Assembly (NCBI RefSeq): GCF_014635665.1
Contig: NZ_BMDG01000018.1
Span: 1 to 64,000, forward strand
Direction of reading: 5' to 3'
Length of the DNA: 64,000 bases
Source: Isoptericola cucumis
Lineage (GTDB): Bacteria > Actinomycetota > Actinomycetes > Actinomycetales > Cellulomonadaceae
Below the pieces are notes generated by a model. The model did not search any database. It saw nothing but the letters and a program-made list of their open reading frames with translations, and was not told the DNA's origin. Positions 37,014 through 62,439 of this stretch are shown here, piece by piece; position 1 is the stretch's first letter, and each line of letters opens with the position of its first letter. The position numbers and the translations under genes were made by a program.

Positions 37014-37604
37014 GTGCGCGTGCTGGGAGTGGATCCGGGCCTGACCCGGTGCGGGGTCGGCGTCGTCGACTCGCGACCGGGCCGGCGGGCCGCGTTCGTC
37101 GACGTGGGCGTCGTGGGCAGCGACCCGGGCGCGAGCATCGACCTGCGGCTGCTGGCGGTCGCCGACGGCCTGGAGACGTGGATGGACCGGCACGTGCCGG
37201 ACGTGGTGGCGGTCGAGCGGGTGTTCGCCCAGCACAACCGGGGCACCGTGATGGGTACCGCGCAGGTCGCGGGGATCGCGATGCTCGTGGCCGCCCGCCG
37301 CGGGGTGCCGGTGGCCATGCACACGCCCAGCGAGGTGAAGGCGGCCGTCACCGGCTCCGGCCGGGCCGGCAAGGAGCAGGTGCAGCACATGGTGGCGCGC
37401 ATCCTGGGTCTCGACGAGCTGCCGAGACCCGCCGACGCCGCCGACGCCCTCGCCCTGGCGGTGACGCACCTGTGGCGCCCGGCCGGCGCGCTGCAGGGCG
37501 GGGACCGGCACGAGCTGACCCCGGCGCAGCGGGCCTGGGCCGCGGCCGAGCAGTCCGCACGCCGCGGCTCGCACCGGGGCGCGCCCACGCGCGCCCGTGG
37601 CTGA
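37014..37604 (+). CDS. ruvC: Holliday junction endonuclease RuvC
   Basis: The 196-residue resolvase cuts Holliday junctions symmetrically. Catalytic acidic residues are in [12 protein letters not shown] (Asp7), [18 protein letters not shown] (Glu) and the C-terminal [13 protein letters not shown] (Asp pair). The GTG at 37014 is the start. It lies 59 bp after yebC and 168 bp before ruvA. I see no SOS palindrome before it, unlike M. tuberculosis ruvC. Confidence 0.95.
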
Positions 37605-37706
37605 CCTCCCGTCTCCGACCGTGCGCGGCTGACCTCCCCGCGGGGCCGCCGGCGCCCCGCGCCGCCGCCCACCGTGTCGTGACCCGGCGCCGTCGGCGGG
37701 GGTTGT

Positions 37707-37712
37707 TACAGT
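37707..37712 (+). promoter_or_regulatory. Putative -10 box of ruvAB
   Basis: TACAGT in the 168-bp gap between ruvC and ruvA would start transcription near 37719. Downstream lie two copies of GTGTTCGAC spaced 22 bp (37727 and 37749), which resemble LexA half-sites but lack inverted partners. Confidence 0.4.
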
Positions 37713-37772
37713 GACGCCTCGTACGGGTGTTCGACCATGTTCCCGGCGGTGTTCGACGGAAGGAAGCCAGCG

Positions 37773-38405
37773 GTGATCGCCTCCCTGACCGGCACGGTCA
37801 CGCACGTGTCCCTGGAACGGGTGGTGCTGGACGTCGGCGGCGTGGGGTACCTCGTGCACGCCACCCCCGGCACCCTCGCGGGTCTGCGGGTGGGGGAGCG
37901 CGCACAGCTGCACACCACCCTCGTCGTGCGCGAGGACTCGATGACGGTCTACGGGTTCGCGGAGGCGGACGAGCGCGAGGTCTTCGAGACGGCGCAGTCC
38001 GTGTCGGGGGTCGGGCCGCGGATCGCGCTGGCGATGCTCGCCGTCATGCCCCCGGACGCCCTGCGTCGTGCGGTGGACTCCGACGACACGGCGGCGCTGC
38101 GGCGGGTGCCCGGCGTCGGGCCGAAGAGCGCGCAGCGCATCGTCCTGGAGCTGTCCGGCAAGCTCGGTGCGCCGTCGTCCGGCGGCCCCGGCGCGCAGGA
38201 GACGCCGACGCCGGCGTCGGGCGACGCGGGCCGCGACCAGGTGGTCGAGGCGCTCGTCGGCCTCGGCTGGACCGCGAAGGTCGCGCAGGACGCGGTGGAC
38301 CGGGTTCTGGCCGACTCGGCGACGGACGGCGCGCCGGCCGCACCGGTCGACGTCGCCGCCACGCTGCGCGCGGCCCTGCGGTCGCTGGGCGGCCGCCGTG
38401 GCTGA
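37773..38405 (+). CDS. ruvA: Holliday junction branch-migration protein RuvA
   Basis: The 210-residue protein binds Holliday junctions and loads RuvB. It shows the OB-fold start [26 protein letters not shown] by positions 1-26, the helix-hairpin-helix pairs [13 protein letters not shown] and [16 protein letters not shown], and a C-terminal RuvB-binding domain ([12 protein letters not shown]). The GTG at 37773 is preferred over 37737 because it gives the canonical N terminus and follows GGAAGG. The 3' end overlaps ruvB by 8 bp. Confidence 0.95.
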
Positions 38406-39549
38406 CCTCACGGGCGGGTACCCGGACCAGGACGGCTACGCGGGCGAGCGGCTCGTCACCGCGGGCGCCGACGAGATCGAGCGCGCCGCCGAGGCGGCGC
38501 TGCGCCCCAAGAAGCTCGACGAGTTCGTCGGGCAGGTCGTGGTCCGCGAACAGCTCTCCCTCGTGCTGCAGGCGGCGCTGGCCCGGGAGGCCACGCCCGA
38601 CCACGTGCTGCTCTCCGGGCCGCCCGGTCTGGGCAAGACGACGCTGGCCATGATCATCGCGGCCGAGCTCGGTGCCTCGCTGCGCGTCACCAGCGGGCCG
38701 GCCATCCAGCACGCGGGCGACCTCGCGGCCGTGCTCTCCTCGCTCGAGGAGGGCGAGGTGCTGTTCATCGACGAGATCCACCGCCTCGCCCGGCCGGCCG
38801 AGGAGCTGCTCTACGTGGCGATGGAGGACTTCCGGGTCGACGTCGTGGTCGGCAAGGGCGCCGGCGCCAGCGCGATCCCGCTGGCGCTGCCGCCGTTCAC
38901 CGTGGTCGGGGCCACCACCCGGTCGGGGCTGCTGCCGGCGCCGCTGCGCGACCGGTTCGGCTTCACCGGCCACCTCGACTTCTACGACGCGCCGGAGCTG
39001 GAGCGGGTCATCCTGCGCTCCGCGGGCCTGCTGGGCGTCGAGATCCAGCACGGCGCGGCGCACGAGATCGCGGGCCGCTCCCGCGGCACCCCCCGCATCG
39101 CCAACCGGCTGCTGCGCCGTGTGCGCGACTGGGCGCAGGTGCGCGGCGACGGCCGGCTGGACCTGCGGGCCGCGCACGCCGCGCTCGAGGTGTACGAGGT
39201 CGACCCGATCGGGCTGGACCGGCTCGACCGGGCGGTGCTCGACGCCCTGTGCCGGCGGTTCGCCGGCGGGCCGGTCGGCCTCGGCACGCTGGCCATGACG
39301 GTGGGGGAGGAGCCGGACACGGTCGAGACCGTGGCCGAGCCGTACCTCGTGCGTGAAGGGCTCGTCGCGCGCACCCCGCGAGGTCGGGTCGCGACGGCGG
39401 CCGCCTGGCAGCACCTCGGCATCCAGCCGCCCCCGGGGGCCTGGGGGACGACGCCGGGGTCGCTGTTCGACCCCGACGAGGACGGCCGGGCGGGCTCCGT
39501 CGCCGGGCGTCTCCAGGGCCCGGGTCCGAGCGGCGGCTCGGGCCCCTAG
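38398..39549 (+). CDS. ruvB: Holliday junction helicase RuvB
   Basis: The 383-residue AAA+ motor drives branch migration. It has [11 protein letters not shown], Walker [12 protein letters not shown] (Lys80), Walker [11 protein letters not shown], sensor [18 protein letters not shown] and arginine finger, and the C-terminal winged helix ending around residue 350. An extra Gly/Pro-rich tail of about 40 residues follows. The GTG start overlaps ruvA by 8 bp. Confidence 0.97.
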
Positions 39550-60191: not shown

Positions 60192-60222
60192 CCGAGGCCC
60201 GCCCGCCCTGCTGGACGCCGGC

Positions 60223-60238
60223 TCGAACGTGTGTTCGA
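60223..60238 (+). promoter_or_regulatory. SOS (LexA) box before the radical SAM gene
   Basis: TCGAAC-GTGT-GTTCGA is a perfect palindrome matching the actinobacterial LexA-binding consensus TCGAACN4GTTCGA. It ends 8 nt before the ATG at 60247. No other perfect match is visible in the window, including before dinB and the ruv genes. Confidence 0.88.
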
Positions 60239-60246
60239 ATGTGTCG

Positions 60247-62439
60247 ATGAGGTGGGACGGGCAAGCGATCGCGGCGGACGACGGCGCGCTGCCGGGGCTC
60301 GAGCGCAGCGGGCTGGCACGGCTCGGGCTGGTGCGCAGCGTGAGGACGCCGGAGTTCGCCGGCGTCACCTTCCACGAGGTGATGTCCAAGAGCGCCCTGT
60401 CCAAGGTCCCGGCCGCGTCGCGCATGCCGTTCGGCTGGACGGTCAACCCGTACCGCGGGTGCTCGCATGCATGTCGCTATTGCGCCAGCCCTGAGACTCT
60501 CGTCCTCATGGCGGACGGGCGGCAGGTACCGATCCGGGATGTCCTCGTCGGAGACCGTGTGATCGGGACGATGTCCGACGGCAAGTATCGTCGCTACGTC
60601 GCTACGCCCGTGCTCGCGAAATGGTGGACGGTCAAGCGTGCGCACCGCGTGACGCTGCGTGACGGCACGGAGATCGTCAGCAGCGGCGACCATCGATTTC
60701 TGGTGAGCGGGCGGGGGTGGAAGCATGCGGCCCGTCCCGCGCCGGGCGAACCGCAACGCCCTTACCTCACCGCGAACAATTCCCTCATGGGTTTCGGGCA
60801 CGGTGTGCGGACAGTGGCGTATACGGCGCCCGGAGAGTCGCGAGAGTATCGGCTGGGATATCTCGCTGGGATGATCCGCGGTGACGGGATGCGCTTCGCC
60901 AAGACGTACGTGAAGCCGACGGGGCGCCAGGTCCACGTCACGCAGTTCCGACTGGCGCTCGCTGACCGTGAGGCGCTGGAGCGGTCAGCCGACTATCTCG
61001 CGCTCGAGGGCGTCCGCCTCTCGCGTCGGCCGTTCACCCCGGCTACCAGCACCCGGCGAGCCACGGACTCCATATACACGGGCCGGCGGGCGGACTACCA
61101 GACGATCGACCGGATCGTGGCGTGGCCCGAGGATGCCTGCGCCGACTGGAAGCGCGGATTCCTCGCGGGCATCTTCGATGCCGAGGGGTCCTGCTCCCAT
61201 GGGGTTCTCCGGATCGCGAACAGCGACGCAGAGATCCTGTCCCGGACGAGCGCTTACTTGGACGACTTCGGGGTGTCGAACGTACGGGAGCAAGCCAGAG
61301 CCAACGGAGTCGCCACGATACGAGTCGTGGGTGGTCTCGCGGCCCGACAGCGGTTCTCTCGCGTCACGGGCCCGGCCATCTCGCGCAAACTCACAATCCT
61401 GGGCAGCGCGGTGAAGACTTCGACGGACCTCGGCGTCGTGAGTGTCGAGGATCTCCGCATCGAGCAGAGCATGGTCGACATCACCACGGGCACGGGGGAC
61501 TTCGTCGCGAACGGGGTGATCTCGCACAACTGCTTCGCTCGCCCCACCCATGAGTACCTCGACCTCGACGCGGGCAAGGACTTCGACTCCCAGGTCGTCG
61601 TGAAGATGAACGTCGACACCCTGCTGCGCGCCGAGCTCGCGAAGCCGTCGTGGCGGCGAGAGCCGGTGGCGCTGGGGACCAACACCGACCCGTACCAGCG
61701 CGCCGAGGGGCGCTACCGGCTCATGCCCGGCATCATCGGGGCGCTCGCGGACTCCGGCACCCCCTTCTCGATCCTCACCAAGGGGACCCTGCTGCGGCGC
61801 GACCTGCCGCTGATCGCGCAGGCGGCCCAGCGGGTGGAGGTCGGCCTCGGCGTCTCGTTGGCGTTCGCCGACGAGGAGCTCCAGCAGGCGGTCGAGCCGG
61901 GGACGCCGACCCCGCGTGCCCGGCTCGACCTGATCCGGGCGGTGCGCGCGGCCGGGCTGCCCTGCGGGGTCATGGTGGCCCCCGTCCTGCCGTGGCTGAC
62001 CGACTCCCGGGACCACCTGCGCCGACTGCTCGACGCGATCGCCGACGCGGGCGCGACCGGGGTCACGGTGGTCCCGCTGCACCTCAAGCCGGGCACCCGC
62101 GAGTGGTACCTGCAGTGGCTCGCCAAGGAGCACCCGCACGCCGTCGCGGGCTACGGGCGCGTGTTCTCCCGTGGCACGTACGCGCTGGAGGCGTACCGGC
62201 AGTGGCTGTGGGACCGGGTGCAGCCGCTGCTGGACGAGCGGGGCTTCGGGTCGTCCGGGCACCGGGCGCGCTCGGGAGCCACGGGCCGCTACGCCGGCGA
62301 GCTCCGGGCGCACGACGAGGGCGACTACCCCGCCGGCTCGATGGTCGAGCCCGCGGCCGGGGGAGCGCTGGCCGGGATGCCCCGGGACGGCGGCGGCCTG
62401 CAGGTCGCGGGCGCCGGCGTCGAGGAGGTGCTGTTCTGA
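60247..62439 (+). CDS. Intein-containing Rv2578c-family radical SAM protein
   Basis: The 730-residue precursor is an SplB-like radical SAM protein (Rv2578c family) interrupted by an intein at residues 79-428. The host begins MRWDGQAIAADDGALP and has the radical SAM motif with Cys72 and Cys76; the third ligand is either intein Cys79 (precursor) or Cys429 after splicing, so the spliced order is CSHACRYCFARPTHEYLD. Later host blocks are VVVKMNVDTLLRAEL, GTNTDPYQRAEGRYRL and GVMVAPVLPWLTDS. Mature length is about 380 residues. The ATG at 60247 follows a LexA box by 8 nt, so the gene should be induced by DNA damage. Biochemical role of the family is unknown; relatives of spore photoproduct lyase suggest a nucleic-acid or repair function (inference). 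Confidence 0.93.
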   Translation: MRWDGQAIAADDGALPGLERSGLARLGLVRSVRTPEFAGVTFHEVMSKSALSKVPAASRMPFGWTVNPYRGCSHACRYCASPETLVLMADGRQVPIRDVLVGDRVIGTMSDGKYRRYVATPVLAKWWTVKRAHRVTLRDGTEIVSSGDHRFLVSGRGWKHAARPAPGEPQRPYLTANNSLMGFGHGVRTVAYTAPGESREYRLGYLAGMIRGDGMRFAKTYVKPTGRQVHVTQFRLALADREALERSADYLALEGVRLSRRPFTPATSTRRATDSIYTGRRADYQTIDRIVAWPEDACADWKRGFLAGIFDAEGSCSHGVLRIANSDAEILSRTSAYLDDFGVSNVREQARANGVATIRVVGGLAARQRFSRVTGPAISRKLTILGSAVKTSTDLGVVSVEDLRIEQSMVDITTGTGDFVANGVISHNCFARPTHEYLDLDAGKDFDSQVVVKMNVDTLLRAELAKPSWRREPVALGTNTDPYQRAEGRYRLMPGIIGALADSGTPFSILTKGTLLRRDLPLIAQAAQRVEVGLGVSLAFADEELQQAVEPGTPTPRARLDLIRAVRAAGLPCGVMVAPVLPWLTDSRDHLRRLLDAIADAGATGVTVVPLHLKPGTREWYLQWLAKEHPHAVAGYGRVFSRGTYALEAYRQWLWDRVQPLLDERGFGSSGHRARSGATGRYAGELRAHDEGDYPAGSMVEPAAGGALAGMPRDGGGLQVAGAGVEEVLF
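60481..61530 (+). other. Intein with LAGLIDADG homing endonuclease domain
   Basis: The 350-residue intein starts with Cys1 (CASPETLVLMADG, block A), has block B as SSGDHRFLVSG, two LAGLIDADG helices (LGYLAGMIRGDG near 60850-60890 and RGFLAGIFDAEG near 61153-61190), block F (MVDITTGTGDFVANG) and ends VISHN with the terminal His-Asn pair, followed by extein Cys429. All residues for class 1 splicing are present. Base usage is clearly less GC-rich than its host (codons such as ATA, TTG, AAA, CAT and TCT appear), which points to recent transfer. The endonuclease could make the intein mobile. Confidence 0.93.

Follow-up and report, generated by a model that had tools for sequence, protein, structure and literature searches.

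The radical SAM gene and its intein

The window analyzed here is a stretch of 64,000 nt from Isoptericola cucumis (contig NZ_BMDG01000018.1). On its plus strand, an open reading frame at 60247..62439 (start codon ATG at 60247, stop codon at 62437-62439) encodes an intein-containing radical SAM protein of the Rv2578c family as a 730-aa precursor. The precursor matched the NCBIfam model NF038136, "intein-containing Rv2578c family radical SAM protein," with 836.6 bits (cut-off, 700) over profile positions 1-573 of 574, and the Rv2578c family model NF038135 with 521.9 bits (cut-off, 430). Because both profiles match from residue 1 of the ATG reading, ATG 60247 was favored over the in-frame GTG at 60229. 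When the precursor was searched with Pfam profiles, Radical_SAM and LAGLIDADG_3 (PF14528) were found over their cut-offs and two intein models (PF05203 and PF14890) under theirs. Enzyme and intein are both covered by the single NF038136 match over a curated cut-off, and nothing essential sets the window protein apart from that family; its intein is of full length (350 aa), and mini-inteins make up 31 of the 68 alleles collected.

Relatives were gathered in 230 records, comprising the window, the locus of its own genome, 69 loci from a first search, and the loci of further searches. Three unmapped records (L055, L068, and L069) were skipped, and the 227 mapped ones contained 210 distinct genes. 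The sample is non-random: it consists of the best-scoring matches of phylum and class searches and the over-cut-off matches of a family sample, together with 12 distant intein-bearing matches that were chosen from the phylum search for length, several of them under the family cut-off. In the phylum sample, 174 of 396 genomes had a match to NF038135, 45 of them over the cut-off; the corresponding figures were 181 of 393 (165 over it) for the class sample and 101 of 150 (99 over it) for the family sample. No intein was present in 142 of the 210 distinct genes; 31 carried a mini-intein (152-214 aa), 9 a mid-sized intein (287-312 aa), and 28 a full intein (340-402 aa). In the window's genus, match lengths indicated five full inteins, six mini-inteins, and five genes with none among the 16 genomes with the gene, including that of the window.

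The N-extein of the window protein (residues 1-78, 60247..60480) ends in CSHACRY, with Cys72 (Cys-7) and Cys76 (Cys-3) as ligands 1 and 2 of the Fe-S cluster motif. It is followed by the intein at 60481..61530, which runs from Cys1 to His349-Asn350 (Cys79 to Asn428 of the precursor), and by a C-extein of 302 aa at 61531..62436, which begins with Cys+1 (Cys429) and holds the remainder of the radical SAM domain. Two LAGLIDADG motifs, GYLAGMIRGDG (60856..60888) and GFLAGIFDAEG (61156..61188), both retain their acidic residues, as expected of an endonuclease, and the C-terminal splicing block reads ANGVISHN (61507..61530). The Cys1 codon, at 60481..60483, specifies the splicing nucleophile, which mimics ligand 3 in the precursor: the precursor contains a CX3CX2C at residues 72, 76, and 79 (60460-60483), and after the predicted splicing, the motif would be formed by Cys72, Cys76, and Cys+1, the last as ligand 3. 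Cys1, His71, His349, and Asn350 were invariant in 19 aligned inteins, and the residues typical of a class 1 LAGLIDADG intein (Cys 1, block B His, a His-Asn end, and Cys +1) are all present. Judged from these residues, the precursor should be capable of self-splicing, and the intein is predicted to have endonuclease activity.

All 68 distinct intein alleles share the same insertion point as well as Cys-7, Cys-3, Tyr-1, Cys1, the terminal His-Asn, and Cys+1. Intein-free kin read, for example, CSHACRYCFAR across this point, and the intein-free gene L014, whose C-extein is 91% identical, reads CSHACRYCFARP uninterrupted, confirming where the intein was inserted. The earlier note had described a 350-residue LAGLIDADG intein exactly between the second and third cysteines, with Cys1 at the third ligand position before splicing and Cys+1 there afterward, and had called for an alignment of homologues with and without intein; that alignment bears the description out, and the predicted geometry is exact (residues 79 and 429). 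An intein also sits at the same cysteine in L229, a distant radical SAM relative under the NF038135 cut-off (C-extein 38% identical), so the use of this insertion site extends past the Rv2578c family in the strict sense.

With regard to the enzyme itself, the family profile matched spore photoproduct lyase (SPL, SplB) entries among solved structures only weakly (E, 0.007-0.014), over 39 positions and the cysteine motif, and the precursor alone gave no match to solved structures at E 0.01, SPL included. Davis 2002 is said to have Rv2578c in its SOS list of M. tuberculosis. In several Streptomyces strains the Rv2578c-family gene is annotated as a putative SplB, with a similarity that the authors, in the part of the paper available, describe as not strong (PMC12924846). 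We infer a role of the enzyme in DNA repair. The Streptomyces gene is also reported, in the same part, as the integration site of phage Samy (PMC12924846), so two unrelated kinds of mobile element, phage and intein, target this gene family.

Promoter and LexA box

Upstream of the gene, on the plus strand, a probable -35 element (TGGACG) is located at 60212..60217 and a probable -10 element (TCGAAT), recognized from base frequencies in relatives, at 60235..60240, 17 nt from the former. The family consensus at -35..-31 from the start codon is TTGAC. Between the two elements, and overlapping the -10 element, lies the LexA box TCGAACGTGTGTTCGA at 60223..60238; as the earlier note had stated, it is a perfect palindrome (12/12) that ends 8 nt ahead of the ATG. 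Where the box lies at -24, in 51 intein-bearing and 66 intein-free relatives (117 in all), the bases at -12 and -7 were T without exception, and the -35 element was TTGAC, with positions -34 and -32 less constant. The spacing of -35 element, box, -10 element, and start codon (60212-60249 in the window) was alike with and without intein. This tight packing suggests that transcription begins from about the ATG and yields a leaderless mRNA, and the position of the box in the spacer, overlapping the -10 element, suggests that LexA represses by blocking the promoter.

LexA boxes were counted in the 184 genes whose start could be mapped and whose upstream DNA was long enough; the other 26 of the 210 were dropped. 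A box of at least 10/12 starting at -30..-20 was found in 58 of 60 intein-bearing genes (30/31 mini, 7/7 mid, and 21/22 full) versus 96 of 124 intein-free genes. Control windows of 66 nt further upstream, which offered more positions than the test, contained a LexA box in 1 of 184 genes. The two intein-bearing misses were L038, with a 12/12 box at -41, and L219, with none. Among the 28 intein-free genes lacking a box at -30..-20, 18 carried GGGAACN4GTTCTA (9/12), typically ~46 nt upstream, and in the remaining 10 a box scoring 10/12 or better lay elsewhere, at most ~92 nt away. L071, L073, L241, and L252 are among the 18 genes with GGGAACN4GTTCTA in place of the -24 box, and in L241 and L252 it is followed by a second LexA-like 14-mer. 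From these upstream sequences, the LexA box is seen to belong to the host gene, not to the intein.

LexA-regulated radical SAM genes have been described in Actinobacteria. In the portions of the literature available to us, the core SOS regulon of Gram-positive bacteria is listed with a radical SAM protein among its members (PMC7739468), and the S. venezuelae radical SAM gene vnz_31145 is induced ~20-fold by mitomycin C and bound by LexA (PMC9380542). In both, the likeness to the window gene is that of an actinobacterial radical SAM gene under LexA, but the name Rv2578c is absent from those portions (PMC7739468, PMC9380542). The main text of PMC8151990 mentions neither Rv2578 nor radical SAM. 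The 14-nt box of vnz_31145 was present in 77 of 295 putative Streptomyces genomes, and in 2 of 30 loci read, this 14-mer immediately preceded an Rv2578c-family gene, although its strand was opposite to that published for vnz_31145 and its position was -38 instead of the published -61. It is likely that vnz_31145 is itself an Rv2578c-family gene. Because box and promoter are conserved in the relatives, and in view of the literature on a LexA-bound radical SAM gene, the window gene is very probably a member of the LexA regulon, and to this extent the DNA-damage control read from the box in the earlier note holds. LexA would be expected to bind at 60223-60238 and the gene to be induced by damage, which would link an uncharacterized radical SAM enzyme to the way Actinobacteria respond to DNA damage.

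The 4.46-Mb genome contains five perfect LexA boxes and no occurrence of the reversed control pattern. It encodes LexA, and the lexA frame is preceded by three boxes that match at 10-11 of 12 positions; another of its perfect boxes lies 57 nt before a gene for ImuA'. Two of the five perfect boxes (L262 and L263) are close to genes that presumably encode proteins of the DUF222/HNH endonuclease type. In the window, a ruvC-ruvA-ruvB cluster, read from translations, is located at 37014-39549, with an 11/12 LexA box at 37719-37734 just before ruvA; the cluster is a probable second SOS locus of the window.

Mobility of the intein

The distribution of the intein was compared with the history of its host gene. 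For this, a tree of a quick type was built from the C-exteins of 186 genes; the other 24 of the 210 were dropped because of stops, shortness, or less than 50% identity. Support was weak for 71 of its 183 inner branches. To account for the 22 full inteins on this tree, 18 gains or losses are required, and starred branches force at least 14 of these. L188, with no intein, and L205, with a full intein, have exteins identical at 228/231, 295/300, and 416/420 nt. For the dS comparisons, 22 of the 68 intein alleles were used. In two sets of six full inteins, mean dS was higher in the inteins than in their own C-exteins (0.960 versus 0.500 and 0.731 versus 0.457), a pattern fitting horizontal transfer. 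Ten mini-inteins of 160 aa that form a clade gave a dS of 0.348 for the intein and 0.336 for the C-extein, a match fitting vertical descent, and their intein dN/dS was 0.105. In the window, GC3 was 0.82 in the intein versus 0.97 in the C-extein.

Both endonuclease motifs, with their acidic residues, were present in 24 of the 28 full inteins; three of the others gave no match to the second motif pattern, where the pattern itself is perhaps at fault, and L056 has lost the second acid. In several mid-sized inteins the endonuclease motifs have decayed. Such a pattern of gain, decay, and loss is the cycle expected of a homing intein, and by these sequence comparisons, the intein in the window is most likely a selfish homing element. 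Against a selfish reading, mini-inteins kept throughout a clade without an endonuclease would also fit a useful intein.

The anatomy, the identical site in every allele examined, the promoter, and the mobility pattern are direct observations on these genes, and we consider it probable that together they represent a LAGLIDADG homing intein, mainly selfish, in a LexA-repressed, SplB-like radical SAM gene. In the proposed course of events, LexA would occupy the promoter between the -35 and -10 elements, and its cleavage upon DNA damage would release a probably leaderless mRNA. The 730-aa precursor would then excise the intein autocatalytically by means of Cys1, the block B His, His-Asn, and Cys+1, rebuilding CX3CX2C and leaving an enzyme able to bind its cluster. 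The intein endonuclease would invade intein-free alleles and later decay, giving rise to mini-inteins that may be inherited vertically or lost. The cluster site may suit an intein particularly well since that stretch of DNA is not free to change in the host and already supplies Cys+1.

The recurrent gains of an intein under an SOS promoter, with both endonuclease motifs and their acidic residues in 24/28 full inteins as noted above, raise an additional possibility compatible with the homing reading, namely that LexA control causes the endonuclease to be made when RecA recombination is active, so that the SOS promoter serves the spread of the intein. However, intein-free genes typically have the box as well, and the intein would thus exploit it without having shaped it; we consider this timing of homing unlikely.

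Possible control of splicing at the cluster site

This locus bears on the question of whether inteins are ever kept for regulating their host. The earlier note proposed that a cluster bound on the precursor ties up Cys1 and makes splicing depend on iron, redox state, or damage. This proposal was not supported. The residues concerned are fixed for other reasons: Cys-7, Cys-3, and Cys+1 are ligands of the enzyme, and Cys1 is the usual class 1 nucleophile. Conservation of Cys1 and Cys-3 was accordingly rejected as evidence for a switch, both being forced by other functions. The LexA box, which was to add DNA-damage control, was likewise rejected as part of a switch; the same box and promoter are typical of intein-free genes, and near-identical sister genes differ in the intein.

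In such a cluster switch, an Fe-S cluster or other metal held by Cys-7, Cys-3, Cys1, and perhaps Cys+1 would sequester the nucleophile, and splicing would follow its loss. The precursor does present a complete CX3CX2C with Cys1 as the third cysteine, but the same geometry is unavoidable for any Cys1 intein placed before this Cys. In Hint domains, moreover, Cys1 has to be placed at the active site beside the bond to be cleaved, a position not easily reconciled with a cluster loop. There is a precedent for metal in a mycobacterial DnaB intein, which, according to the passages available, is blocked by zinc through its catalytic cysteine (PMC7360933). Cluster-gated splicing in the Rv2578c-family precursor is unsupported, and we regard this switch as very improbable.

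The catalytic cysteine of mycobacterial DnaB inteins is described, in the passages available, as a sensor of oxidants or zinc (PMC6195587, PMC7360933), and the likeness to the Rv2578c-family intein lies in this possible sensor function. The DnaB inteins differ in being class 3: their nucleophile is positioned elsewhere and the disulfide partner lies inside the intein. Those passages mention no Fe-S motif (PMC6195587, PMC7360933).

Another parallel is provided by the MoaA intein of Pyrococcus abyssi. MoaA is a radical SAM enzyme that has two Fe-S motifs. In its precursor, a native disulfide between Cys-3 of the N-extein and Cys1 is described as controlling splicing, in the passages available of two reviews (PMC3922620, PMC10663303), and the MoaA intein shares with that of the window gene the extein Cys at -3, the intein Cys1, and the radical SAM host. 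The MoaA intein differs in being archaeal and in an enzyme of another family, and the passages on MoaA mention no LexA control (PMC3922620, PMC10663303). Given this published disulfide that blocks splicing, the novelty that the earlier note claimed for the switch was too strong. Every part of the locus is of a known kind. Among the matches listed in a search of open-licence papers by titles and abstract openings, none concerned cluster-gated splicing or the Rv2578c-family intein.

By analogy with MoaA, a Cys-3/Cys1 disulfide trap is the simplest conditional mechanism that could be envisaged, and a redox-sensitive precursor is plausible. In an oxidized cell, a disulfide within this CX2C pair would hold the SOS-induced precursor unspliced until the cell became reducing, sparing an oxygen-labile enzyme. 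Extein Cys-3 stands opposite intein Cys1 in 68/68 alleles, with the same -3/1 spacing as the MoaA trap in the passages cited above. Other disulfide partners are few: in 55 of the 68 alleles, including that of the window, neither the first 100 nor the last 40 residues of the intein contain any cysteine besides Cys1, and the only cysteines of the window N-extein are Cys-7 and Cys-3. Nevertheless, the enzyme demands Cys-3 and intein chemistry demands Cys1, and their conservation therefore does not indicate that a trap has been selected for; 142 of 210 relatives lack the intein, which turns over fast; and the cytoplasm of aerobic actinobacteria is normally reducing. We consider the trap a fairly unlikely mechanism.

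Of the ideas for a switch, the best that remains is a precursor sensitive to redox state or metal. In its broadest form, Cys1, Cys+1, Cys-7, and Cys-3 would act as one thiol site that reversibly blocks splicing through a disulfide, a metal ion, or an Fe-S cluster, so that the SOS-induced repair enzyme would mature only under redox and iron conditions that allow it to carry its own cluster. We regard this four-thiol site as distinctly unlikely; if true, it would be a quality check made from a parasite and recurring across many actinobacterial genera.

The Rv2578c family is a good test bed for conditional splicing, as it offers one insertion site at an Fe-S ligand and the same SOS promoter with and without intein. 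Since full, mini, and empty alleles occur within a single genus, nature provides matched pairs in which to compare the control of splicing. When an intein profile was compared with solved structures, intein structures were matched, among them 3nzm (E, 0.022), which we take to be the structure of an engineered redox-trap intein.
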